Below, in pieces: positions 3,000 to 15,885 of a stretch of DNA of 38,788 nucleotides (its first letter is position 1; each line of letters begins with the position of its first letter). Made by a program: the position numbers and the translations under genes. The DNA is from Candidatus Rokubacteria bacterium RIFCSPLOWO2_02_FULL_73_56 (GTDB taxonomy: Bacteria > Methylomirabilota > Methylomirabilia > Rokubacteriales > CSP1-6): positions 1,258 through 40,045 of the forward strand of contig MGCF01000034.1 of NCBI GenBank assembly GCA_001788495.1. Reading direction: 5' to 3'. The notes beneath the pieces are model-generated. The model had not been told where the DNA came from. It was given only the letters and a program-made list of their open reading frames with translations, and ran no database searches.

Positions 3000-3827
3000 A
3001 TGGCCATCGTCGTGATCTCCCACCAGATGGGCGCGGGCGGGCCGGAGGTCGGCACGGCGCTGGCCGAGCGGCTCGGCTACCGCCACGTGAACCACGAGCT
3101 CCTGCTGGACGCGGCGCGCCGCTACGGGCTGGCCGAGGAGCGGCTCTCGCGCCTCGAGGAGGCGAAGCCCTCCCTGTTCGAGCGGTTCGACACCGAGACG
3201 CGCCACCACATCACCGTGCTCCAGACGACGCTGCTCGAGTTCGCCGAGCTCGACGACGCGGTGCTCATGCGCGGCGGCGGGCAGTGGCTCCTGCGGGGCG
3301 TCCCCCACGCGCTGCGCGTGCGGCTCGTCGCGCCGTTCGAGCAGCGCGTGCGCCACTGGATCAAGCGCACGGCGGAGATGACGGGGGAGACGCCCAACCA
3401 GCGCGCCGCCGCCGACTTCGTCCGCCGCGACGACGCCGAGAAGGCCGGCCGGATGCGCTACCTCTACGAGGTGGACGTCGCGGACCCGTCGCTCTACGAG
3501 CTGATCGTCAACACCGAGAAGCTCGCCCCGCCGGCGGTCGTCGAGGTGCTCGAGGGGCTCGTGCGGCGGCCCGAGCTGGCCACGACGGAGGCGGGCCGGC
3601 GGCTCGTCGCCGCCCGCGCGCTCGCCTCGCGCGTGCAGGTGGCGCTCGCGACGCACCCGGACACGCGGCGCTACCGCTTCACCGTGGACGCGCAGGACGG
3701 GGTCGTCACGCTCGAGGCCACGGCGGGCCTCGAGCGGGCGCTCGAGGTGGCGCGCACGGTGCCCGGCGTGCGCGAGGTGCGGGCGCAGCAGGTCGAGATC
3801 CCGCCGATCCCGCCCTTCGTCGCCTAG
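3000..3827 (+). CDS. Cytidylate kinase-like protein with C-terminal BON domain
   Basis: The 275-aa protein has two parts. Residues 1-200 resemble the cytidylate-kinase-like family (Cytidylate_kin2): a first strand ending in an unusual glycine-rich loop G-A-G-G-P-E-V where the family usually has GSGGREI, then A-L-A-E-R-L-G-Y and an N/D-x-E-L-L helix, with an Arg-rich lid-like region around residues 115-150. Residues 209-275 look like a BON domain (V-Q-V-A-L, then D-G-V-V-T-L-E, then V-P-G-V-R-E-V), usually linked to membrane or phospholipid association in osmotically induced or secreted proteins. True Cmk enzymes have a canonical P-loop lysine that is absent here, so a nucleotide monophosphate kinase role should not be assumed. 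No signal peptide is present. The gene follows the 65-aa gene by 3 bp and converges on htrA with a 6-bp gap. Confidence 0.8.
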   Translation: MAIVVISHQMGAGGPEVGTALAERLGYRHVNHELLLDAARRYGLAEERLSRLEEAKPSLFERFDTETRHHITVLQTTLLEFAELDDAVLMRGGGQWLLRGVPHALRVRLVAPFEQRVRHWIKRTAEMTGETPNQRAAADFVRRDDAEKAGRMRYLYEVDVADPSLYELIVNTEKLAPPAVVEVLEGLVRRPELATTEAGRRLVAARALASRVQVALATHPDTRRYRFTVDAQDGVVTLEATAGLERALEVARTVPGVREVRAQQVEIPPIPPFVA

Positions 3828-3833
3828 CTGTCG

Positions 3834-5024
3834 CTAGCGGGGGCGCCGGGCCGGCGGGCCCTCGGGGAGCCCGCGGTCGGGCGCCTCGGCGACGGTCACC
3901 GCGACGGTGCGCCGCTCGCGCTTGCGGACGATCTCGAGCGTCACGCGCTTGCCCACGTCCGCCTCGGCGGAGAGCCGCTGGAGGTGGCGGTAGTCACCGA
4001 CCGGCGTCCCGTCGAAGGTGACGACGACGTCGCTCGGCTGGAGCCCCGCCGCCGCGGCGGGGCCGCCCCGCTCCACGCGCGTGACCAGGGCCCCCCGCGC
4101 GTCGGCGAGCCCGAGCGACTGCACGAGCTCGGGCGTCAGCGGCTCCATCGCGATCCCGAGCCAGCCGCGCGTCACCTTGCCGCGGTCGATGAGCTGCGCC
4201 AGGACGCGCTTCACCATGTTGACGGGGATGGCGAAGCCGATGCCCTGCCCGGTCGCCACGATGGCCGTGTTGATCCCGATCACCTCGCCGCGCAGGTTGA
4301 CGAGCGGACCGCCGGAGTTGCCCGGGTTGATCGACGCGTCGGTCTGGATGAAGTTCTCGTAGGTCGCGATGCCGACGTCCGAGCGCCCGGTGGCGCTGAC
4401 GACGCCCACGGTGACCGTCTGGTCGAGCCCGAACGGGTTGCCGATCGCGATCGCCCACTCGCCGACCCGCAGGGCGTCGGAGTCGCCGAGCGTCGCCACC
4501 GTCGGCGCCGCCGTCGGCTCGAACCGGATCACGGCCAGGTCGGTCTTCGTGTCCGTGCCGACGATGCGCCCGCGGAACTCCTGCTTCGAGGACAGACGCA
4601 CGGTCACGCCGTCGGCGCCGCGCACGACGTGGTGGTTCGTCAGGACGTAGCCGCGCCGGTCGATGATCACGCCCGAGCCGAGCCCGGGCCGGTGGAACTC
4701 CTCCGGGCGCGCCCCCCGCCGGCCGAAGAACTGGTCGAAGAAGTCCTTGAACGCGGGATCGTCGGCGAACGGCCCCGGCACCGCCGGCGGGCGCCGCGGG
4801 CGGGCGACCTGGATCGTGCCGATGTGGACGACCGCCGGCCGCACGTGGTCGGCGACGGCGACGAAGGCCGACTGGAGCGCCTCGGCGCCGCCGGGCGCCC
4901 GAGCGCCCGGCGTGGGCGACCCGGCGCGCGGCGTCAGCAGCACGGCGTGGAGCCAGAAGCCGCCGCCGAACAAAGCGAAAGCTGCGCTGAGCAGCAGCAG
5001 GGCGCGGGCTGTCCTGGGCGGCAT
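3834..5024 (-). CDS. htrA: HtrA/DegS-type membrane-anchored serine protease with one PDZ domain
   Basis: The 396-aa protein begins with an N-terminal hydrophobic segment (about residues 8-30), probably a membrane anchor or uncleaved signal. A trypsin-like domain follows, with the catalytic triad visible as His132 (in T-N-H-H-V-V), Asp162 (in T-D-L-A-V-I-R) and Ser237 (in P-G-N-S-G-G-P). One PDZ domain (about 286-375) follows; it includes R-G-W-L-G-I and the G-L-Q-P-S-D-V-V motif. With a single PDZ, the layout resembles DegS more than DegP/DegQ, which have two. Such proteases degrade or sense misfolded envelope proteins in the periplasm. A Pro/Arg-rich tail ends the protein. Transcription is divergent from the export operon, under a strong promoter at 5075-5103. 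Catalytic residues are complete, so it should be active. Confidence 0.95.
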   Translation of the reverse strand: MPPRTARALLLLSAAFALFGGGFWLHAVLLTPRAGSPTPGARAPGGAEALQSAFVAVADHVRPAVVHIGTIQVARPRRPPAVPGPFADDPAFKDFFDQFFGRRGARPEEFHRPGLGSGVIIDRRGYVLTNHHVVRGADGVTVRLSSKQEFRGRIVGTDTKTDLAVIRFEPTAAPTVATLGDSDALRVGEWAIAIGNPFGLDQTVTVGVVSATGRSDVGIATYENFIQTDASINPGNSGGPLVNLRGEVIGINTAIVATGQGIGFAIPVNMVKRVLAQLIDRGKVTRGWLGIAMEPLTPELVQSLGLADARGALVTRVERGGPAAAAGLQPSDVVVTFDGTPVGDYRHLQRLSAEADVGKRVTLEIVRKRERRTVAVTVAEAPDRGLPEGPPARRPR

Positions 5025-5194: not shown

Positions 5195-6772
5195 ATGAAG
5201 TGGCATTCGCTGCGGCGGACTCTGTGCGCGGTCCTCGTGGTGTCGCTCTTGGCGCCCCACGGGGGATACGCCGCGCAGCCAGCCGCGCCGGAGGTGTCCG
5301 CGCCGGTTCGGGCGACGCCCGCTCGCCCCGGGGCCTCCCGGCCCACGATCGCGCCGGGCACGCGCACGATCCTCGCCTCCGACTACCGGCTCGGCCCCAG
5401 CGACGTCCTCGAGGTGCAGATCGTGGGCCGCATCGAGACGATCCAGCACCAGCCCGTCGTGGACCTGGAGGGCACGATCAGCGTCCCGCCGCTCGGCGCG
5501 ATCCCCGTCGGCGGCCTCACGCTCCTCGAGGCGCACCGGCGCGTCGCCGAGCGCGCCCGCACGATCTTCCGGTTCGCCGACGTGACCGTCACCGTGCTCG
5601 CGCCGCGCGCGTTCGAGCTCACCGTGTCCGGCGAGGTCGAGCACCCCGGGACGCAGCTCGTGACCGCGACCCGCCGCGTGCACGAGGTGGTCCAGGAGGC
5701 GGGCGGGATCACGGCGCGCGGCAGCCTGCGCCACGTGCAGCTCGTCACGGCGGCCGGCGCGCGCGAGCTCGACCTGCTCGCCTTCGAGCTCCTGGGCGAC
5801 GTCTCGCAGAATCCGTTCGTGCGCGAGGGCGTGCGGATCCACGTGCCGCCGCGGAGCGGCTCCGTCACGCTCACGGGCGCGGTGCGGCGCCCCGGGGAGT
5901 ACGAGCTCGGGCGCGACGGCTCGCTGCGCGAGCTGCTGGCGGTCGTGGGCGGGCTCAGCCAGGCGGCGGCGGGCAGCGACGCCCGGTTGACGCGCGTCGC
6001 CGCCGACGGCCGCAAGGAGACGTCCACGCTCGACCTCACGAGGGCGATCGCGCCGCCCGCGGACGTGACGCTCCGGCCGGGTGACGCGCTCTACGTGCCG
6101 CCGCTCTCCGTGCTGCAGGACGTGGTCGAGGTCCGCGGCGCGTTCAACGGCACGCCCGAGAGCAGCAAGACGTCGGTGGCCGGGAAGGCGACGATCGTCC
6201 AGCGGTTCGAGCTCGCGCAGGGCGAGCGCGTGCGCGACGTCGTGCTCAAGGCGGGCGGCGCGGCGGCGTACGCCGACCTCCGGCTGGCGATGATCGAGCG
6301 CGGCGATGCCACGGGCCCGCGGCAGCGGATCCCGATCGACCTGCAGCGGCTCCTCGTCGAGAAGGACGAGACGCACAACGTCCTGCTGCAGAACGGCGAC
6401 GTGCTCCTCCTGCCGATCGTCGAGGACAAGGTCTACGTCGTCGGCGAGGTGAAGCTGCCGGGGCCCATCGACTTCCGGCCGGACCTGACGCCGCGTGAGT
6501 ACGTCACGCTGGCCGGCGGCCCCAGCAACCGCGCCAAGCTCCTGAACACGCTCGTGACGTTCCGCAACGGCAAGACGTACCCGCTCGGCGAGGCCCCGCC
6601 GCTCGAGCCGGGCGCGGTCGTGACCGTCCCCGAGGTGGCCGTCAAGTGGTGGCAGGACTACGTCCTGATCGCCCAGGTCATCGCCAGCCTGATCACCGCC
6701 TACACGGGCATCTTCGTCCTGTTCGGCGGCCCGATCGGCTTCAACAGCAACAACACCAACAGCAACGACTGA
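5195..6772 (+). CDS. Wza-like outer-membrane polysaccharide export protein
   Basis: The 525-aa protein has a signal peptide (residues 1 to about 27, cleavage near G-Y-A-A-Q), a Poly_export domain (about 63-137, starting Y-R-L-G-P-S-D-V-L-E-V) and several SLBB-type modules (E-L-T-V-S-G-E-V near 141, V-T-L-T-G-A-V, V-V-E-V-R-G-A-F and V-Y-V-V-G-E-V). A hydrophobic C-terminal segment (about 490-513) ends in an Asn/Ser-rich tail. In Wza the C-terminal helices form the outer-membrane alpha-barrel, so this segment fits that role. There is no lipobox cysteine after the signal peptide, so it is not an obvious lipoprotein, unlike Wza. It is longer than E. coli Wza (about 380 aa) because of extra SLBB modules. 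It is the first gene of the operon; the next gene starts within its stop codon. Confidence 0.92.
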   Translation: MKWHSLRRTLCAVLVVSLLAPHGGYAAQPAAPEVSAPVRATPARPGASRPTIAPGTRTILASDYRLGPSDVLEVQIVGRIETIQHQPVVDLEGTISVPPLGAIPVGGLTLLEAHRRVAERARTIFRFADVTVTVLAPRAFELTVSGEVEHPGTQLVTATRRVHEVVQEAGGITARGSLRHVQLVTAAGARELDLLAFELLGDVSQNPFVREGVRIHVPPRSGSVTLTGAVRRPGEYELGRDGSLRELLAVVGGLSQAAAGSDARLTRVAADGRKETSTLDLTRAIAPPADVTLRPGDALYVPPLSVLQDVVEVRGAFNGTPESSKTSVAGKATIVQRFELAQGERVRDVVLKAGGAAAYADLRLAMIERGDATGPRQRIPIDLQRLLVEKDETHNVLLQNGDVLLLPIVEDKVYVVGEVKLPGPIDFRPDLTPREYVTLAGGPSNRAKLLNTLVTFRNGKTYPLGEAPPLEPGAVVTVPEVAVKWWQDYVLIAQVIASLITAYTGIFVLFGGPIGFNSNNTNSND

Positions 6773-7578
6773 TGTACGAAGCCTACTGGGAGCTCACCGA
6801 GGCGCCGTTCGACAACTCGCCGAACCCGAAGTTCTTCTACCTGTCGCCCGAGCACGAGGAGGCGCTCGTGCGCCTCGTCTACACCGTGCGCCACCGCAAA
6901 GGGTGCGGGATGCTGACGGGCGAGTACGGGTGCGGCAAGACGACGCTCTCGCGCGCGCTCATCCAGCGGCTCGAGGCCGAGCGCTACGAGATCGGGCTGC
7001 TCACCAACCCGAGCTGGACCGCGATCGACTTCCTGCGCGAGGTGCTCTACCAGCTCGGCCAGGAGACCGAGGAGAAGAACAAGCCCGAGCTGCTGCACCT
7101 GCTGAACGAGGTCTTCTTCCGCAACTACCAGGCGGGCCGTGACAGCGTGATCATCGTCGACGAGGCGCAGCTGATCGACGACGACGCGGTCTTCGAGGAG
7201 CTGCGCCTGCTCCTGAACTTCCAGACCGACGACCGCTTCCTCGTGACGCTCCTCCTGATCGGCTCGCCCGAGCTCGCCGTGAAGGTGCGCCGGCTCAAGC
7301 ACCTGGACCAGCGCATCACGCTCCGCTACCACCTCAACACGCTCGACTACACGCACACGGCGAACTACATCGCCCACCGGCTCAAGATGGCGGGCCAGAC
7401 GAAGCCGCTCTTCACCGAGGAGGCCGTCAAGCTGATCTTCGACTTCACGCGGGGCACGCCGCGCGAGATCAACAACCTCTGCGACGTCGCGCTGCTCGTC
7501 GGCTACTCCAAGCGCGTGCGGGAGATCGGCGAGAAGATCATCGCCGAGGTGATCAAGGACATGGTGGGGGTCTCCTGA
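6772..7578 (+). CDS. ExeA-like / PEP-CTERM-locus-type secretion ATPase
   Basis: The 268-aa AAA-type ATPase starts at ATG 6772, overlapping the previous stop (TGATG). The opening M-Y-E-A-Y-W-E-L-T-E-A-P-F and the P-N-P-K-F-F-Y-L-S motif are typical of the ExeA/MSHA-like ATPases seen in exosortase (PEP-CTERM) and exopolysaccharide loci. Walker A is G-E-Y-G-C-G-K-T-T (50-58) and Walker B is V-I-I-V-D-E (126-131), with a sensor-like S-P-E-L region and a C-terminal helical lid containing R-G-T-P-R-E-I-N-N-L. It lacks a peptidoglycan-binding extension and membrane segments, so it should be cytoplasmic. ExeA-type ATPases help place export machinery in the cell wall. Its position between wza and the wzc-like gene suggests a role in export assembly, though no exosortase is in this window. 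Confidence 0.88.
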   Translation: MYEAYWELTEAPFDNSPNPKFFYLSPEHEEALVRLVYTVRHRKGCGMLTGEYGCGKTTLSRALIQRLEAERYEIGLLTNPSWTAIDFLREVLYQLGQETEEKNKPELLHLLNEVFFRNYQAGRDSVIIVDEAQLIDDDAVFEELRLLLNFQTDDRFLVTLLLIGSPELAVKVRRLKHLDQRITLRYHLNTLDYTHTANYIAHRLKMAGQTKPLFTEEAVKLIFDFTRGTPREINNLCDVALLVGYSKRVREIGEKIIAEVIKDMVGVS

Positions 7579-8729
7579 TGGTGCGCATGAGCGACCTCGT
7601 GCGCGGCATCGTACGGGAGAAGAAGCCCGCGCCGCCCGCGCCCGAGCAGCCGGCCGCCGAGCCGGCGGCCGGCGAGGCGTCCGCCGCGGTGCCGCCGGCG
7701 CTGCCGCGCACGCGCCTCGCCGCGGGCCCGGCCCGGCGCACCGCCGCGCCGCCGCCTGCGCCGGCGGCCGAGCGCCCCGCCGAGCCCGTCGTCCCGCCCG
7801 AGGCGCCCGCCGTCGCGCCCGCGCCCGCGGAGGCTCCGGGCGAGAGCGGCGAGGCGCTCTTCGTCGAGCTCGTGCTGTTCCTCAACCGCGTGCGCGAGCT
7901 GATGCGCACGGGGGACCCGTTCCCGTGGGACGAGCTCGGGCGGCTGATGGAGCGCGTGCACGCCTCGCTCGAGCGGTCGGGCGAGCTGTTCTGGGTCGCG
8001 AACAGCCCCGTGGCGCCGGCCGGCGTGGACTACCTCGCCCTCCACCAGGCGCGCGTCGCCGTGCTGGCGATGCGCATCGGCGCCGACATCGGGTACGACC
8101 GGCCGCGCCTCGTCCGGCTCGGCATGGCGGGGATCCTGATGGACATCGGCCTCTGGCAGCTCCCCCCGGGGGTCCTCAAGCAGCTCGACGCGCTCTCGCC
8201 CGAGGAGCAGACCCAGTACCACTCGCATCCGCGCCTGTCGGCGGAGTGGATCCGGCGCTGGGCCCCGCCGGGCGAGGGCCTCGCCGAGGCCGTGCTGCAG
8301 CACCACGAGCGCGAGCAGGGGCAGGGGTTTCCGCAGGGGCTCGGCGGCGGCTCGATCAACCCCGACGCGAAGATCCTGGGGCTCGTGGACACGTACACGG
8401 GGCTCACGCTGCCGCCGGCGCCGCGGCCGCGCCTGCGCCCGCACGAGGCGATCCGGGACATCGTGCGGTCCAAGCACGAGGCCTTCGCCTCGACGCTGAT
8501 CAAGGCCCTGCTGTCGGAGATCTCGGTGTTCCCGCCCGGCACCCTCGTGCGCCTGAACACGGGCGAGGTCGGGCGCGTCACCGCCGTCAACCGCAGCCAC
8601 CCGCTGCGGCCGCGCGTCGAGATCATCGCCGACGGCAAGGGCCAGCGCCTGACGACGCCCAAGACGACGGACCTCGCGGAGGCGCCGTTCGTCTACATCA
8701 CGGGACCGGTGGCGGAGGCGACGCGGTGA
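7578..8729 (+). CDS. Degenerate HD-GYP-domain protein
   Basis: The 383-aa protein starts at ATG 7578 inside the previous stop (TGATG). Residues 1-90 are a disordered Pro/Ala/Glu linker. Residues 95-290 follow the HD-GYP phosphodiesterase pattern: an H-Q-A-R-V helix (His156), then M-D-I-G (188-191) where the family has H-D-I-G-K, then H-S-H-P (215-218), then H-H-E-R-E-Q-G-Q-G-F-P (242-252) where the family has HHERxDGxGYP, and finally L-V-D-T-Y (Asp271). The loss of the HD histidine, the GK lysine and the DG aspartate suggests lost or altered cyclic-di-GMP hydrolysis; it may only bind a nucleotide or partner. The C-terminal 90 residues form a small beta-rich domain (L-V-R-L-N-T-G-E-V-G-R-V) like that after some HD-GYP proteins. 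No membrane segments. Confidence 0.82.
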   Translation: MVRMSDLVRGIVREKKPAPPAPEQPAAEPAAGEASAAVPPALPRTRLAAGPARRTAAPPPAPAAERPAEPVVPPEAPAVAPAPAEAPGESGEALFVELVLFLNRVRELMRTGDPFPWDELGRLMERVHASLERSGELFWVANSPVAPAGVDYLALHQARVAVLAMRIGADIGYDRPRLVRLGMAGILMDIGLWQLPPGVLKQLDALSPEEQTQYHSHPRLSAEWIRRWAPPGEGLAEAVLQHHEREQGQGFPQGLGGGSINPDAKILGLVDTYTGLTLPPAPRPRLRPHEAIRDIVRSKHEAFASTLIKALLSEISVFPPGTLVRLNTGEVGRVTAVNRSHPLRPRVEIIADGKGQRLTTPKTTDLAEAPFVYITGPVAEATR

Positions 8730-9319
8730 GGGTGCTCGGGCGCCGCCCGGTCGCCGACCCGGCGGAGCTCGCGACCGTCGTCGCCGAGTGCCTGCCCCAC
8801 CTCGAGCCGGGCCTCACCCTGCTCGAGCGCGCGCCGAGCGCCGGCGAGATCCCGGTGGACCTCGCGTGCGCGGACGCCGGGCGCCGGCTCGTGCTCGTCC
8901 TCTGCGACACCGTCGCCGGGCCGGAGCTCGTCCTGCGCGCCGTCGAGGCGGCCGCGTGGTGGGGCGAGCACGCGGCCCTCCTCGCGCACGCGTTTCCCGG
9001 CGCCCGGCTCGAGGCCGTGGCGCCGCCGCGCACGCTCGTCGTCGCGTCCCGCGTGAGCGACCGCGCGCTGCGCCTCGTCCGCGCCCTGGGCCCGCTCGCG
9101 CCCGTGCCGGTCGAGTGCCGCGTGTTCACCGACCCCGAGGGCGCCGTCGTGAGCCTCGAGCGCCTCGACGTCCCGGCCTCCGCGGAGGCGCCGCGCGCGG
9201 CGCCCGCGCCCGCGGCGCCGGCGGCGGCCGAGCCGCCCCGGCGGGACCCCTCCGCCGAGCGCGCCGAGGCGCTGATCGGGCAGCTCGCGCGCCTCCGCTT
9301 CAGCGAGGTCTTCCGCTGA
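8726..9319 (+). CDS. Hypothetical protein between HD-GYP-like and kinase genes
   Basis: The 197-aa protein starts at GTG 8726, overlapping the previous TGA as GTGA; the frame is open further upstream, but only as an out-of-frame shadow of the HD-GYP-like gene. Residues 30-130 form a compact alpha/beta domain whose core (E-I-P-V-D-L-A-C-A-D, then R-R-L-V-L-V-L-C-D) resembles the strand pair of PD-(D/E)XK or NucS-like nucleases (DLxxxDxxxxxVxxExK) but lacks the Glu-x-Lys catalytic pair. A Pro/Ala-rich linker (about 140-170) leads to a short C-terminal helix (A-L-I-G-Q-L-A-R-L). No signal or membrane segment. Function unknown. Its fixed place next to the degenerate HD-GYP gene and stop-start overlaps on both sides suggest a partner role in export control. 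Confidence 0.72.
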   Translation: MRVLGRRPVADPAELATVVAECLPHLEPGLTLLERAPSAGEIPVDLACADAGRRLVLVLCDTVAGPELVLRAVEAAAWWGEHAALLAHAFPGARLEAVAPPRTLVVASRVSDRALRLVRALGPLAPVPVECRVFTDPEGAVVSLERLDVPASAEAPRAAPAPAAPAAAEPPRRDPSAERAEALIGQLARLRFSEVFR

Positions 9320-12300
9320 TGGCCCAGTACGAGATGAACCTGCGCGACTACTGGCTGATCGTGCGCCGCCGGCGCGTGATCATCGCGGTCTGCACCATCC
9401 TCGTCGCGCTGTTCAGCTTCTGGCTCGCGAAGCAGAAGATCCCGACCTTCCAGGCGACGGCCGCGGTCAAGTACGAGCAGTCCACGCAGCTCTCCGGGCT
9501 CCTCGTCGAGGTCCTGTCGTACTCGAGCGCCGACTCGATCGAGACGCAGGTGAGCCTCATCAAGAGCTACCCGATCCTCGAGGACGTGGCGAAGCGGCTC
9601 GGGCGGCTGCCGCAGACCGTGCCGGGCGAGGCGCTCCGCGAGTCGAAGAGCTACTGGGCGACGCTCGACGCGATCGCGTCGAAGGTCAAGGTCGCCCGCG
9701 TCCCCGCGACGAGCATCCTCGAGGTCACGGTCACGTCGATCAACCCGCGCGAGGCGCGCGACATCGCCAACGCGATCGTCGAGACCTACCGCGAGCACAG
9801 CCGCCGGCTGCGCAACGCCCGCGTCACCGAGGCGCGCAAGTTCATCGAGGCGCAGCTCAATGACGCCGAGGCCCGCGTCAAGCGCGCGGAGGCCGAGGTG
9901 TGGGCGTTCCGCGAGGCCAACCGGATCATCTCGCCCGGCGCGGAGTCCACGGTGCTCCTCTCGCTCGTCACGCAGGTGCGCGGCGACATCGAGAAGGTCC
10001 GCCAGCAGCGGACCGAGCTCGAGGTGGCCCAGCAGCGCCTGGCCCGCCCGAGCCCGGCGGGCGCGCGCGAGCGCATCTTCATCGACTCGACGAACCCGAC
10101 GCTGCTGCGCCTCCAGACCGTCTACGCCGAGCTGCTGCTGGAGCGGAACAACCTGGCGCTCGAGGTGACCGACCGCCACCCGCGGCTCCGCGCGCTCGAC
10201 GACCGCATGCGCGAGATCTGGGCGGAGATCCGCCGCGAGGTGGGCGCCCAGATCGCCATGCTGCGCGCGCGCGAGGAGATCCTGACCCGCCAGATGGGCG
10301 ACCTGCTGCAGAAGAACCGCGAGGTGCCGGCGATCGAGCTCTCGCTGCAGCGGCTCCAGCGGGAGGCCAGGAGCAACGACGACCTGCTGACCCTGCTCCG
10401 GACGCGCCACCAGGAGGCGCTGATCAAGGAGGCCGAGAAGATCGACGAGGTCAGCATCGTGCGCCCCGCCACCGAGCCCGACGCCCCCCTCGGCGGCGAG
10501 ACGCTCAACACCGTGCTCGTGGGCGCGCTGCTCGGCCTGACGCTCGGCCTCGTGCTGGCGTTCGTGCAGGAGACGCTCGACACCTCGATCGGCACGATCG
10601 AGGACGTGGAGGCCTACCTCGAGGTGCCGGTCCTCGGCGTCGTCCCGCACATCGACGCGCGCGAGACCGTGCAGCGCATCCTGGAGCGCCGCCCGGCGCT
10701 CGCGCAGATGGACCCGGAGGCGCTGCTCAGCCACGCGCTGCTGATCACGCACTTCGACCCGAAGTCGCCGGTCGCCGAGGCGTACCGCACCCTGCGGACC
10801 AACGTCCAGTTCGCCCGCATGGAGCGGTCGGGCAAGGTGCTCGTCGTGACGAGCCCGACGCTCCAGGAGGGCAAGACCACGACGATCGTGAACCTCGCGC
10901 TGACGATGGCGCAGAGCGGCCAGCGCACGCTCCTCGTCGGCGCGAACCTGCGCCGGCCGAGCATCCACCGCTTCTTCGGCATCGAGCGCGAGCCCGGGCT
11001 CGCCGACATCCTCGTGGGCTCGGTGGCCTGGCGCGACTGCATCCGCACCGTCGCCGACATCCTGATGGGCCGCTTCGAGATGGAAGACATCATGGCGGCG
11101 CCCGGCCTCGACAACCTGCACATCATCGAGGCGGGGCCGATCCCGGCCAACCCGTCGGAGCTGCTCTCGACCCCGGCGATGGCCGCGTTCCTGCGCGACG
11201 TGCGCGACGCGTACGACGTGGTGCTCATCGACACGCCGCCGATCCTGCCGGTGACCGACTCGGCGATCGTCGCCTCGCAGGCGGACGGCGTGATCCTGGT
11301 CTACCAGGCGGGCAAGGTCGGCCGCCTCGTGCTCAAGCGGGCCAAGATCCACGTCGAGAACGTCGGGGGCAAGGTCTGGGGCGTGGTGCTCAACGACGTC
11401 AAGACCGAGATCGCCGGCTACGCCTACACGCACTACTACACCCACTACTACGGCGAGGAGACGGTCGTCGACACCCACAAGGAGCGCCTGCAGCGCGCCT
11501 GGGGCGGCTTCCGCGGGCTGTTCCGGCGCGGCGCGCGGGCCGCGGCCCGGCCCGAGGGCGCGGGGGCGCCGGGCGCGGCGGCCGCCGGCGTCGGCCCCGG
11601 CGACGCCGGGGCGCGCGGCGCGCCGCCGCGGTCGACGAAGTACCGCAACGTGTGGCTCGGCATCCTCGTGCTCCTCGTCCTGCTCGCCGCGCTCGTCGGG
11701 GCGGCCGGCTGGCGCCTGGGCTGGTTCGACGTGCCGCTCTCGCCCCGGGACCTCCTGCGGCTCCGCCTCGGGGCGCTCGCGCCCCCCGCGCTCCAGACGG
11801 TCGTGCCGCCGGCGCCGGCCAGGCCGCCCGCGCTGCTGCCGCCCTCCGCGCCGGCGCCGCCGCGCGCCGCCGCGCCCTCGACCTCTGCGCCCGCGAAGCC
11901 TGCCGCGCCGCCGCGCGCCGCCGCGCCCCCCAAGCCTCCCGCGCCCGCGGCGGCCGTCGCGCCCGGCGCGCCGCCGACGCGCTTCGCGCTCGAGCTCGGG
12001 CCGTACGTCACCGCGGCGGAGGCGGACCGCGTGGAGCGGCAGCTCAGCCAGGCGGGCTACCAGACCGCGCGCTTCAGGCAGCAGACGGGCGCCGCGGTCT
12101 ACGCGGTCCTCATCGAGCGCGTCCCCACGGCCCGCGAGGCCCAGACGCTCGTCGGCACGCTCCGCGAGAAGGGGTTCGGCGACGCGCGCGTGCGCGGCGA
12201 GGGCCCGCCGCTCAGCGTGCAGGTCGGCGCGCCGCTGCCGCTGCGCGGCGCGGTCCAGGTCGCGGAGCGGCTCCGCGCCGAGGGTCACCAGGTCCGGGTG

Positions 12301-12432
12301 GCCGTGCAGCCGGGCGCGGCGACGATGTACGTGGTCCGCCACGGCAACTTCACCACGGCCGAGGCGGCGGAGGTGAAGGCGCGGGAGCTGGTCCGCCTGG
12401 GCCTCGCGAGCCAGGTCGTCCGCGCCCGCTGA
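9319..12432 (+). CDS. Wzz/BY-kinase co-polymerase with C-terminal membrane helix and tandem SPOR repeats
   Basis: This 1037-aa protein starts at ATG 9319 (TGATG with the previous stop). Order: Wzz N-terminal domain with TM1 (about 19-39), long coiled coil (160-390), TM2 (about 399-417), then a tyrosine-autokinase ATPase domain. Walker A is T-L-Q-E-G-K-T-T-T (Lys519) and Walker B V-V-L-I-D-T-P-P (Asp638). Walker A' reads L-L-V-G-A-N-L-R-R-P (538-547), where the family has D-x-D. A tyrosine cluster follows (Tyr701-Tyr711, six Tyr). Unusually the chain continues through a basic linker, a third membrane helix (778-799), a Pro/Ala linker (800-886) and two SPOR-like repeats (about 889-960 and 965-1037, F-A-L-E-L-G-P-Y and L-S-V-Q-V-G). 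Such proteins set polymer length and gate Wza. No Wzb-type phosphatase gene is visible nearby. Confidence 0.9.
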   Translation: MAQYEMNLRDYWLIVRRRRVIIAVCTILVALFSFWLAKQKIPTFQATAAVKYEQSTQLSGLLVEVLSYSSADSIETQVSLIKSYPILEDVAKRLGRLPQTVPGEALRESKSYWATLDAIASKVKVARVPATSILEVTVTSINPREARDIANAIVETYREHSRRLRNARVTEARKFIEAQLNDAEARVKRAEAEVWAFREANRIISPGAESTVLLSLVTQVRGDIEKVRQQRTELEVAQQRLARPSPAGARERIFIDSTNPTLLRLQTVYAELLLERNNLALEVTDRHPRLRALDDRMREIWAEIRREVGAQIAMLRAREEILTRQMGDLLQKNREVPAIELSLQRLQREARSNDDLLTLLRTRHQEALIKEAEKIDEVSIVRPATEPDAPLGGETLNTVLVGALLGLTLGLVLAFVQETLDTSIGTIEDVEAYLEVPVLGVVPHIDARETVQRILERRPALAQMDPEALLSHALLITHFDPKSPVAEAYRTLRTNVQFARMERSGKVLVVTSPTLQEGKTTTIVNLALTMAQSGQRTLLVGANLRRPSIHRFFGIEREPGLADILVGSVAWRDCIRTVADILMGRFEMEDIMAAPGLDNLHIIEAGPIPANPSELLSTPAMAAFLRDVRDAYDVVLIDTPPILPVTDSAIVASQADGVILVYQAGKVGRLVLKRAKIHVENVGGKVWGVVLNDVKTEIAGYAYTHYYTHYYGEETVVDTHKERLQRAWGGFRGLFRRGARAAARPEGAGAPGAAAAGVGPGDAGARGAPPRSTKYRNVWLGILVLLVLLAALVGAAGWRLGWFDVPLSPRDLLRLRLGALAPPALQTVVPPAPARPPALLPPSAPAPPRAAAPSTSAPAKPAAPPRAAAPPKPPAPAAAVAPGAPPTRFALELGPYVTAAEADRVERQLSQAGYQTARFRQQTGAAVYAVLIERVPTAREAQTLVGTLREKGFGDARVRGEGPPLSVQVGAPLPLRGAVQVAERLRAEGHQVRVAVQPGAATMYVVRHGNFTTAEAAEVKARELVRLGLASQVVRAR
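11428..11451 (+). repeat. Tandem 12-bp repeat encoding Thr-His-Tyr-Tyr twice
   Basis: Two copies of a 12-bp unit (ACG/ACC, CAC, TAC, TAC) encode THYYTHYY in the kinase tyrosine cluster, residues 704-711. The copies differ at one base. It is part of the predicted autophosphorylation site rather than a mobile repeat. Confidence 0.75.
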
Positions 12433-13124: not shown

Positions 13125-14399
13125 GTGCTGCTCTCGATGCTGCTCTCGCCGGAGTTCGCGGTCGGCGGCGCCGCCCCGCTCGCGGAGAAGCGCCAGGTGG
13201 TGATCCGCAGCGAGGACATCCTGCTCCTCCTGATCGCGGTCAGCTGGCTCGCGAAGACCGCCGTCAACAAGGAGCTCGGCCTCGTCCTCCAGACGCCGCT
13301 CAACCGGCCGATCTTCGCCTACGCGGCGATCACGTTCCTCGCGACGCTGGTCGGCTACGCCACGGGCACCGTGCGGACGGCGGCCGGCTTCTTCTACGTG
13401 CTCAAGTACGTCGAGTACTTCGTCGTGTTCTTCATGGTCGTCAACAACGTGCGCGACCGCGAGCAGGCCTGGCGCCTGGCGCGGGTGGCCTTCGTCACCG
13501 CGATCATCGTGAGCTTCATCGGGATCGCGCAGATCCCCTCGGGCCAGCGCGTCTCCGCCCCGTTCGAGGGCGAGTCGGGGGAGCCGAACACCTTCGGCGG
13601 CTATCTCCTGCTCATGATGGCGCTCGCCGGCGGCATCGGGCTCGAGACCGCGCACCTCCGCGTGCGGGCGCTCTGCTTCGGGCTCGTCGCGCTCATGTCG
13701 GCGCCGTTCATCTTCACGCTCTCGCGCGCCTCCTACGTGGGCGCGCTCCCGCTCGTCGCCGTGCTCGCGGTCTTCTCGAGCCGGCGGCGGCTGCTCGTGC
13801 CCCTCGTGCTCGTGGCGCTCGCCGCCTCGCCGCTGCTCGTCGCGACGGCGCCTCCGGTCGTGCAGAAGCGGGTGCTCGAGACGTTCAAGCCCCAGGTGGA
13901 CCAGCCGCGGGTCCAGCTCGGCCGCGTCGGGTTCGACCCGTCCACGTCCGAGCGGCTGCTCGGGTACAAGGGCGCGATCGAGCTGTGGCTCACGCGGCCG
14001 ATCCTCGGCCGCGGCGTCACCGGCGGCTTCTTCCTCGACGCCCAGTACCCGCGGACGCTGATGGAGACGGGGATCCTGGGGCTCGGCTCGCTCTTCTGGC
14101 TCATCTGGACGCTGCTCCGGACCGGCCACTCGGCGTTCCAGTCGCTGACCCGCCCCGAGGACCGCGGGCTCGCGCTCGGCTTCCTGGCCGGCACCGCGGC
14201 GCTCCTGGGCCACGCGGTCGGGTCCAACACGTTCATCATCATCCGCGTGATGGAGCCGTTCTGGTTCTTCGCCGCCCTCGTCATCATGCTGCTCCGCCTC
14301 CAGGAGACCGGGACGAGCCCGACGGCCGGCGCCCCGACGCCGGCGGTCGGCCTGGCCCGCCGCATCGCGCCGGCGGGCAGGATGGTGAGGCTGCGCTGA
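13125..14399 (+). CDS. O-antigen ligase/polymerase-type (Wzy-like) membrane protein
   Basis: From GTG 13125, the first canonical start, the product is 424 aa with about ten hydrophobic segments and a large extracytoplasmic loop (about residues 240-330) before the last helices, as in the Wzy/WaaL O-antigen ligase superfamily. The loop includes R-V-G-F-D-P-S and G-R-G-V-T-G-G-F, consistent with the R-x(3)L / G-x-G-x-G-x type loop motifs. A plausible start is further upstream: from 13041 the frame encodes another hydrophobic helix (I-L-D-Y-G-L-A-L-V) with GGGAG 8 nt before, but the codon there is ATC. So the annotated start may be 28 residues short. It would polymerise or transfer the lipid-linked glycan at the periplasmic face. 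It shares the frame with the upstream kdsC, separated by its TAG. Confidence 0.82.
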   Translation: MLLSMLLSPEFAVGGAAPLAEKRQVVIRSEDILLLLIAVSWLAKTAVNKELGLVLQTPLNRPIFAYAAITFLATLVGYATGTVRTAAGFFYVLKYVEYFVVFFMVVNNVRDREQAWRLARVAFVTAIIVSFIGIAQIPSGQRVSAPFEGESGEPNTFGGYLLLMMALAGGIGLETAHLRVRALCFGLVALMSAPFIFTLSRASYVGALPLVAVLAVFSSRRRLLVPLVLVALAASPLLVATAPPVVQKRVLETFKPQVDQPRVQLGRVGFDPSTSERLLGYKGAIELWLTRPILGRGVTGGFFLDAQYPRTLMETGILGLGSLFWLIWTLLRTGHSAFQSLTRPEDRGLALGFLAGTAALLGHAVGSNTFIIIRVMEPFWFFAALVIMLLRLQETGTSPTAGAPTPAVGLARRIAPAGRMVRLR

Positions 14400-14409
14400 C
14401 GACGGCGCC

Positions 14410-15885
14410 GTGAGCGAGTCCCGGGCCCGACCGCTCGGCGGGCGGCTCTTCCACGGCAGCGCGCTGACGCTCGCCTCGAGCCTGCTGTCGCGCGGCATCG
14501 CCGTCGTCCAGTCGGTCGTGGTGGCGCGCGCGCTCGACGCCCGGCAGGTCGGCGTGTTCGCGATCGTGACCTACGTGCTCGGGCTCCTCGCCGCCTTCGC
14601 CGACCTCGGCCTCCCCACCGCGGCGGCCAAGCTCCTCGCCGAGGCCCGGGGCGCGCCCGGCGCCCTCCGCACGGTCGTGACGACGCTCGCGGTCGCCATG
14701 CTGGGCGTGGCCGGCCTGGCCGGCCTGCTGCTGCTGGTCCTCGCCGCGCCGCTCGCCGCGCTCTACGCCGAGCCGTCGCTCGGCGGGCTGTTCCGCCTCG
14801 GCGCGCTGCTCCTGTTCCTGTCGCTCCTGGGCGCGCTCGGCGCCGGCATGCTCCAGGGGCTCCAGCGGATCAGGCGGCTCGCGGTGGCCGGGGTCGTGAA
14901 GGGGCTCGTGACGCTCGCGGGCATCGTCCTCCTGGTGCGCCCCCTCGGCCTCGCCGGGATCCTCGTCGCGTCCATCGTCGCCGAGCTCCTCGTCTGGCCC
15001 CTCGTCGCGGGCGCCGTGGGCCGGAGCGTGGGCCCGCGGGCGGACGCGGCGGCGGGCGCCCGGGCGGGCGCCGTCGTCCGCCGCGGCGTCCACGTCGCGG
15101 TGCCGGTGTTCCTCGCGGGCCTGCTCGTCTGGGGCGGCGCGCTCTTCGTGCGGTCGTACCTCGCGGCGGCGCTCGGCTACGCCGACGTCGGCTACTTCCA
15201 GCTCGCGGACTCGCTCGCGCGCGTGCTCGTGATCGTGCCGACCGCGGTCGCCGTGCCCCTCGTGCCGCTCGTCTCCGAGAGCGCGGCGGCGGGCGCCGCC
15301 GGCACCGCCGACCTCACGCGCGCGTCCCTGCGCGTGACGCTGCTCACCGTCCTGCCCCTGGCGCTCTTGCTCCACGTCGCCGCCCGGCCCCTCGTCGTCC
15401 TCGTCTACGGCGGCGCGTACGCGAGCGCCGGGCCGATCGCCGCGCTCATGGTGCTCGCCGCCTTCTTCCAGGCCCTCGGCGTCATCGCGTGGTCCACGCT
15501 CGTGGGCACGGGCCGGGTCTGGGCGGGGTTCTGGATCCAGTCGGCGGGCTGGGCGCTCCTGGCCGTCCTGACGCTCGGGCTGGTCCCGGCGCTGGGGCTC
15601 GCCGGGCTCGGCGTGGCCCACGTCGCCGCGGCCGCCCTCACGCTCGCGCTGGGGCTCTGGTACCTCGCGCGGCACCTCGGCGTGCGGCTCGACGCGCTCG
15701 GCGCGCTCGTCCCCGTCTGCGCGCTCGGCTGGCTCGTCGCGGGGGGCCTCGGCCTCGCCGGCCAGGCGGGGCTCGTGGCGGCGGCCGTCCTCGCGGGCGG
15801 CGTCCTCGTCCTCGAGTGGCGCGCGCTGACGCCCGAGGAGGCCGGGTGGGTGCGGGCCGCCGCGCGGCGCGTGGGGCTCCGGTGA
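14410..15885 (+). CDS. Wzx-type polysaccharide flippase
   Basis: The 491-aa integral membrane protein starts at GTG 14410, 10 bp after the previous stop. Hydrophobic segments fill nearly the whole length, about 12-14 in number, interrupted by short charged loops. The N-terminus (G-S-A-L-T-L-A-S-S-L-L-S-R-G) and the pattern F-A-I-V-T-Y-V-L-G-L-L-A-A-F-A-D-L-G-L near 50-70 are typical of the polysaccharide_synt/MVF-like MATE superfamily (Wzx). It would move undecaprenyl-linked repeat units from the cytoplasmic to the periplasmic leaflet. Placement directly after the Wzy-like gene and before the glycosyltransferases is the classical Wzx/Wzy order. Its stop overlaps the next start (GTGA). Confidence 0.88.
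   Translation: MSESRARPLGGRLFHGSALTLASSLLSRGIAVVQSVVVARALDARQVGVFAIVTYVLGLLAAFADLGLPTAAAKLLAEARGAPGALRTVVTTLAVAMLGVAGLAGLLLLVLAAPLAALYAEPSLGGLFRLGALLLFLSLLGALGAGMLQGLQRIRRLAVAGVVKGLVTLAGIVLLVRPLGLAGILVASIVAELLVWPLVAGAVGRSVGPRADAAAGARAGAVVRRGVHVAVPVFLAGLLVWGGALFVRSYLAAALGYADVGYFQLADSLARVLVIVPTAVAVPLVPLVSESAAAGAAGTADLTRASLRVTLLTVLPLALLLHVAARPLVVLVYGGAYASAGPIAALMVLAAFFQALGVIAWSTLVGTGRVWAGFWIQSAGWALLAVLTLGLVPALGLAGLGVAHVAAAALTLALGLWYLARHLGVRLDALGALVPVCALGWLVAGGLGLAGQAGLVAAAVLAGGVLVLEWRALTPEEAGWVRAAARRVGLR

Follow-up and report, generated by a model that had tools for sequence, protein, structure and literature searches.

A putative SPOR-tethered polysaccharide co-polymerase with an altered tyrosine kinase domain in Rokubacteria

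A gene (9319-12432, forward strand) in a 38,788-nt stretch of contig MGCF01000034.1 from Candidatus Rokubacteria bacterium RIFCSPLOWO2_02_FULL_73_56 (the whole stretch is called the window here, and all positions refer to it) encodes a polysaccharide co-polymerase (PCP) with a bacterial tyrosine kinase (BY-kinase) domain that runs on into a third membrane helix and two SPOR domains. We favor the reading, at a probability of roughly 0.55, that this fused protein is a three-helix PCP-2 co-polymerase of a Wzx/Wzy-type exopolysaccharide (EPS) system, that its SPOR domains tether it in the periplasm and that its phosphorylation cycling is reduced or lost. The tether would hold on to the cell wall, or to an envelope or wall-associated partner. 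Among open-access publications, no paper was found that joins SPOR domains with BY-kinases or co-polymerases; SPOR together with Wzc gave one unrelated genome paper. The arrangement suggests that sugar-polymer machines can have a kind of link to the envelope for which there is no earlier description.

Architecture and conservation of the fused protein

The gene is a single stop-free open frame of 1037 amino acids (aa). A sequence-only reading of the window had proposed that it encodes a Wzz/PCP part, a BY-kinase domain, a tyrosine cluster, a third membrane helix (TM3), a Pro/Ala linker and two SPOR domains, in that order, and Pfam, hydropathy and AlphaFold agree with this plan (Table 1). The Pfam domains found were Wzz (residues 5-93), GNVR (343-418), AAA_31 (518-664) and SPOR (two stretches). 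Wzz and GNVR were above the Pfam cut-off and have membrane helices on both sides (hydropathy peaks at residues 20 and 398), as is characteristic of a PCP-2 protein, and a third peak lies at residue 778 (19-residue mean Kyte-Doolittle value 2.81). A contig search gave 36 loci with orthologues, of which 27 are complete and one (L035) is broken, the others being cut by contig ends; the 27 together with the window protein make up the 28 sequences compared below. By hydropathy, exactly three hydrophobic segments are present in each of the 28. In the full-length AlphaFold model, residues 775-799 form a helix, the linker is disordered and the SPOR domains fold as in a model of the pair alone. As a predicted topology, the kinase would be cytoplasmic and TM3 would place the SPOR domains outside the inner membrane, in agreement with the earlier suggestion that the C-terminus crosses the membrane again.

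Assignment of the tail to the SPOR family, also made originally from the letters alone, was borne out by Pfam and by profile comparison. Against a Pfam SPOR cut-off of 21 bits, the window protein scored 49.7 bits over two stretches, and all 28 sequences gave a match. In a six-frame search of the 4.05-Mb genome assembly, the window gave SPOR matches at 11974-12192 (31.2 bits) and 12214-12423 (32.0 bits), each above the cut-off by itself. AlphaFold predicted the SPOR pair with a predicted local distance difference test score (pLDDT) of 90.7 as the SPOR-type order beta-alpha-beta-beta-alpha-beta, repeated twice. A profile search with the tail reached the solved SPOR structures of CwlC (1x60, E 1.3e-4) and E. 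coli FtsN (1uta, E 2.6e-4), with two helical-repeat proteins scoring above them. Foldseek with the SPOR pair listed designed ferredoxin-like proteins first and the CwlC SPOR at rank 5, with nothing under E 0.001, and by itself did not single out SPOR; a single-sequence search of the PDB with the tail yielded nothing useful. An NCBIfam match to GltJ (residues 752-915) was rejected at 18.1 bits versus a cut-off of 450 and is ascribed to Pro/Ala composition.

The nearest relatives by the fused protein are nearly all Rokubacteria, which are soil bacteria. Every one of the 27 complete orthologues (1017-1194 aa) has the same architecture and ends in the same SPOR pair. Compared with the window protein, they show a mean identity of 86% for the kinase, 74% for the PCP part, 64% for each SPOR domain and 34-40% for the two linkers and TM3. 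The ratio of nonsynonymous to synonymous substitution (dN/dS) in eight close pairs was 0.02-0.16 for the kinase, 0.06-0.32 for the SPOR domains (with one SPOR2 outlier at 0.73) and 0.4-1.05 for the linkers. Both SPOR domains are under purifying selection. The broken orthologue (L035:8001-8630) stops matching at residue 210 and resumes downstream at 8560, probably as a result of an assembly frameshift or because it is a pseudogene.

Kinase site, SPOR contact residues and proposed mechanism

The sequence-only reading had assumed an active kinase and missed that the Walker A' motif of active BY-kinases (hydrophobic-D-x-D-x-R) is absent from all 28 sequences. In place of D-x-D, 27 have G-[AGS]-N and one has N-A-N, with Asn543 invariant. 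CapB and BceF in the PDB show D-x-D at the aligned position, and a second BY-kinase of the same genome (G000:C166, ~15.6-18 kb, L045) has a canonical D-S-D Walker A', a Tyr-rich end without a tail and a separate PCP gene. By spacing, Asn543 corresponds to D564 of Wzc, as it lies 24 residues after the Walker A Lys, the distance from K540 to D564. D564 is the second Walker A' Asp of Wzc and is hydrogen-bonded by Y715 (PMC7485978); by analogy, an Asn at this position could keep the contact with the tyrosine without acting as a base. Walker A' has been assigned roles in tyrosine recognition and in the start of phosphorylation (PMC12004946). Walker A Lys519 and Walker B Asp638 are invariant in the 28 sequences and the tyrosine cluster is conserved, as expected for an active BY-kinase. 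Since both Walker A' aspartates are lost throughout, we consider the domain a probable pseudokinase in which the tyrosine cluster is retained and tyrosines still dock. EcpK/EpsV provides a precedent for a BY pseudokinase that acts as a scaffold for a PCP-2 protein (PMC12004946). No low-molecular-weight tyrosine phosphatase was found in this contig, while three are located elsewhere in the genome, and we counted this in favor of the preferred reading.

In the mechanism that we propose, the fused protein, in which the ExxRxxR motif is present, would assemble as an octamer like Wzc. TM3 would bring every C-terminus back to the periplasm, so that as many as 16 flexibly linked SPOR domains could ring the export channel and tether it. 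With Gly and Asn for the Walker A' aspartates, the kinase domain would carry out little or no phosphorylation; contact with nucleotide (Lys519, Asp638) and docking of the neighboring subunit's tyrosines would be retained, which would allow the domain to serve as an assembly scaffold. Instead of a free end, the Tyr segment would form a loop pinned between the kinase and TM3, and this loop could let the cell interior sense SPOR engagement. Control of assembly would probably rest on the tail together with the conserved ATPase and HD-GYP-like neighbors. A bolder proposal, which we consider rather improbable, is a phosphorylation-independent class of co-polymerases in which engagement of the wall by SPOR, relayed via TM3 to the pinned Tyr loop, replaces the kinase cycle. 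If true, wall engagement would control the assembly of a trans-envelope channel, and the machine would be an outside-in, wall-sensing polysaccharide exporter.

Several observations weigh against a SPOR-tethered co-polymerase with reduced phosphorylation. The full-length AlphaFold model has a predicted template modelling score (pTM) of 0.35, a low global confidence in the arrangement of the domains. The kinase is the most conserved part of the protein and has kept its Walker A Lys, Walker B Asp and Tyr cluster; such conservation would fit a scaffold, but an unusual active kinase as well. Tail and kinase type are not strictly coupled, since G231 combines D-A-D with two SPOR domains, and G213 and G226 have GxN/SxN without a tail. 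On the same side stand the SPOR residues at the positions of glycan contact. The SPOR domain of RlpA holds glycan via Gln270, Phe274 and Arg302/309/311; in another SPOR domain, studied earlier, the equivalents Gln251 and Arg285 are important (PMC6895207). When these positions were assigned by alignment through FtsN, SPOR1 was found to have Glu at the Gln site and Ala or Gly at the Arg309 site in all 28 sequences; Phe or Tyr is kept at the Phe site, and Leu, Phe or Ile is present at the Arg311 site. SPOR2 has Gln (9 sequences) or Arg (19) at the Gln site and keeps the Arg311 equivalent in 28/28, with Arg absent at the 309 site.

It is possible, though we think it unlikely, that the kinase is active despite its altered Walker A' and that the SPOR tail regulates a phosphorylation cycle. 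Such a kinase would be in keeping with Lys519, Asp638 and a tyrosine cluster that are invariant or nearly so, with the strong purifying selection, and with the SPOR tails carried by related E-x-D forms and by one D-A-D form. It would, however, have to work in all 28 sequences without either aspartate of Walker A', the motif to which tyrosine recognition and the start of phosphorylation are attributed (PMC12004946).

The SPOR pair thus does not have the combination of Gln270/Gln251 and Arg309/Arg285 equivalents that goes with binding of denuded glycan. Because SPOR1 lacks the canonical Gln and Arg and SPOR2 has one Arg only, wall binding by the Rokubacterial clade is not assured, and the pair may bind the wall via another patch or bind something else. 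The earlier idea of a tether holds in part: the return of the C-terminus through the membrane and the family assignment of the tail are supported, while anchoring to the wall or to division sites is called into question by SPOR1. Relatives with E-x-D kinases retain both Gln and Arg309, in the single SPOR domain of the one-SPOR forms (G082 and G089) and in the first one of the ExD tandem forms, which makes denuded-glycan binding plausible for the wider set. As a tentative alternative, the pair would not bind peptidoglycan but would be a protein- or polymer-binding module, with the exported polymer, the outer membrane polysaccharide export (OPX) protein or some envelope partner as its ligand. 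The invariant Glu and the Ala/Gly of SPOR1 fit such a module, as do the newly invariant residues of the SPOR region (E892, G894, P895, R918, R920, R993 and R1007) and the stand-alone SPOR pairs of the relatives G092 and G094, which likewise carry Glu at the Gln site; the Gln and Arg of the E-x-D relatives argue the other way, and the basic patch could have shifted to R918/R920 or R993/R1007. We doubt even more that the tail directs the export machine to the division septum in the manner of the SPOR domains of FtsN and DamX. SPOR proteins are generally located at the septal ring, the site of enriched denuded glycan (PMC6895207), but the residues that recognize this glycan are largely missing in the Rokubacterial clade and the conserved locus contains no division gene.

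History of the SPOR tails

Within the phylum, co-polymerases occur as DxD forms without a tail, as ExD forms with no tail, a membrane helix only, one SPOR domain or two, and as GxN forms with two. In other phyla, SPOR tails above the Pfam cut-off were found in G100 (one SPOR, GCN), G231 (two, DAD) and G148 (two, EAD), so that co-polymerases with SPOR tails extend beyond the 27 Rokubacterial orthologues that share the full domain order. On the kinase tree the SPOR-tail state has to change eight times, and supported branches force at least five of these changes. By this tree, SPOR tails were repeatedly gained or lost on co-polymerases across several phyla, and their recurrence on related co-polymerases suggests a selected link. 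Stepwise growth of the tail with stepwise decay of the kinase was ruled out, since on the tree the gains or losses are scattered and tail and kinase are not strictly coupled. Other phyla also have kinases with a GxN or SxN Walker A' that lack a SPOR tail (G213, G226 and G162; L118, L120 and L113); putative fused BY pseudokinases are more widespread than the tail.

Closest to the GxN tail are TM-SPOR-SPOR proteins encoded by stand-alone genes in G070, G092, G094 and G082 (tree support 97/92). The GxN tails form a group with the stand-alone SPOR pairs linked to HtrA (97/92) and are separate from the ExD tails; the AU test does not reject one common origin for the fused tails as a whole (p-AU 0.228). 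In G070, G092 and G094 the stand-alone gene is located between a cytidylate-kinase/BON gene and HtrA, the cytidylate-kinase gene of G092 being assigned from position and length only. In the window the corresponding cytidylate-kinase/BON gene (3000-3827) adjoins HtrA (3834-4973) with no SPOR gene between them, and the SPOR pair is found on the Wzc-like protein of the same block. This suggests that the SPOR pair was relocated and fused to Wzc, which by the usual fusion argument would indicate a functional link.

Stand-alone tail genes in relatives might also suggest an assembly join or frameshift that fused two genes, for which the sequence-only reading had pointed to 11470-11640, but this artefact can be dismissed because the 27 complete orthologues keep the same frame and order, dN/dS of the SPOR domains is low, and a phylum search gave a strong tail match (E < 1e-57) in 38 genomes, of which 33 carry it within an open reading frame 862-1374 aa long and five in shorter pieces. 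Homologues are accordingly not always two separate genes, even though stand-alone relatives of the tail exist.

Comparison with known systems and the surrounding locus

Wzc of E. coli, an octamer by cryo-electron microscopy (PMC8285477, PMC11986026, PMC12881504), shares with the Rokubacterial protein a Wzz domain, two helices flanking the periplasmic region, a P-loop kinase with ExxRxxR and a tyrosine cluster, an OPX partner gene and a Wzx/Wzy locus. In contrast, Wzc stops at a free cytoplasmic Tyr tail, where the Rokubacterial protein adds TM3, a linker and two SPOR domains, and its Walker A' is DxD as opposed to GxN. The text of a 2026 paper describing the complete Wza-Wzc complex makes no mention of peptidoglycan. 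How machines of this type pass through and hold on to peptidoglycan has hardly been addressed, and a SPOR-tailed co-polymerase would open the question to direct tests. EcpK/EpsV of Myxococcus xanthus and HfsB/HfsA of Caulobacter are similar in that a BY-kinase-like domain without catalytic residues serves a PCP-2 protein (PMC12004946). The pseudokinases there are separate proteins, and EcpK lacks all Walker motifs and the Tyr tail, whereas the Rokubacterial domain keeps most motifs; it would add a fused kind that retains the Tyr cluster to these newly described systems. FtsN, DamX, DedD and RlpA resemble the Rokubacterial protein in having a C-terminal periplasmic SPOR domain, and its tail matches Pfam SPOR and, by profile search, FtsN. 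In FtsN, DamX and DedD the SPOR domain lies behind a membrane helix and a linker. These proteins differ in having no known link to a polysaccharide export machine, while the Rokubacterial tail is a tandem with altered glycan-contact residues. XrtA/PEP-CTERM EPS loci (TIGR03015 ATPase, TIGR03027 export protein, EpsE) likewise have a TIGR03015-type ATPase and an OPX gene beside the co-polymerase, but SPOR is absent from the XrtA models, and in the window all matches to the XrtA/PEP-CTERM equivalog models (co-polymerase, kinase, export, ATPase) fall below the curated cut-offs.

Table 1. Features of the fused protein and of the surrounding locus (window positions)
Feature	Position	Strand	Basis or remark
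Cytidylate kinase-like + BON gene	3000..3827	+	homologue in relatives flanks stand-alone SPOR-pair gene, HtrA on other side
HtrA-like trypsin/PDZ protease	3834..4973	-	conserved neighbor; beside stand-alone SPOR-pair gene in relatives
OPX polysaccharide export protein (Poly_export + SLBB)	5195..6772	+	conserved neighbor
AAA_22 ATPase resembling XrtA-associated ATPase	6772..7578	+	TIGR03015 235 bits, cut-off 324.5; conserved neighbor
HD-GYP-like protein	7578..8729	+	conserved neighbor; His of HD pair absent in family
Fused PCP-2 co-polymerase / BY-(pseudo)kinase / TM3 / tandem SPOR protein	9319..12432	+	1037 aa
Wzz chain-length determinant domain, residues 5-93	9331..9597	+	Pfam PF02706
TM1	9376..9432	+	hydropathy peak at residue 20
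GNVR domain, residues 343-418, with TM2	10345..10572	+	Pfam; hydropathy peak at 398
ExxRxxR oligomerization motif region, residues 484-496, PVAEAYRTLRTNV	10768..10806	+	motif per PMC3795738
Walker A region, residues 514-520, TLQEGKT	10858..10878	+	Lys519 invariant
Degenerate Walker A', Gly541-Ala542-Asn543 instead of D-x-D	10939..10947	+	alignment to solved CapB, BceF
Walker B region, VVLIDTPPIL	11218..11247	+	Asp638 invariant
Tyrosine cluster YAYTHYYTHYYGEE, residues 701-714	11419..11460	+	read from translated frame
TM3, helix 775-799	11641..11715	+	hydropathy in 28/28; AlphaFold helix
Pro/Ala-rich linker, residues 800-884	11716..11970	+	AlphaFold pLDDT mostly <50
SPOR1, residues 888-959	11980..12195	+	Pfam, six-frame search, AlphaFold
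SPOR2, residues 965-1036	12211..12426	+	Pfam, six-frame search, AlphaFold
Wzy_C polymerase/ligase	13125..14399	+	polymer-specific part
Wzx	14410-15885		polymer-specific part, with glycosyltransferases to ~36 kb

OPX, PCP, Wzx, Wzy and glycosyltransferase genes occur together in the window, as in Wzx/Wzy-dependent EPS loci. The order HtrA (-), OPX (+), AAA_22 ATPase, HD protein and fused gene is kept in the examined Rokubacterial loci as far as the contigs reach, while the genes downstream of the fused gene differ between them, the pattern to be expected if the export core is conserved and the polymer varies. The HD-GYP-like protein reads LMDIG at the HD pair, with LIDVG and similar in its homologues, and the HHExxxGxG[FY]P motif is mostly kept. 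The His of the pair is absent in every homologue read, and from its motifs the protein is perhaps an inactive binder of cyclic di-GMP; two enzymes of the conserved core would thus look degenerate. Its gene is always beside the pseudokinase gene.

PADLOC gave no match. At another locus (L092, G049:C88) a DxD BY-kinase frame runs on into an OPX/SLBB-like protein, the whole frame being 1105 aa, which may represent a fusion or neighboring genes that happen to share a frame. In the window, a 195-aa open reading frame (8732-9319) without a Pfam match separates the HD gene from the fused gene; it is present in some Rokubacterial loci (for example L010, L014 and L007) and missing in others where the two genes lie close together. 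A GvpL/GvpF gas-vesicle-like gene (1961-2692) is located upstream of the polysaccharide locus.

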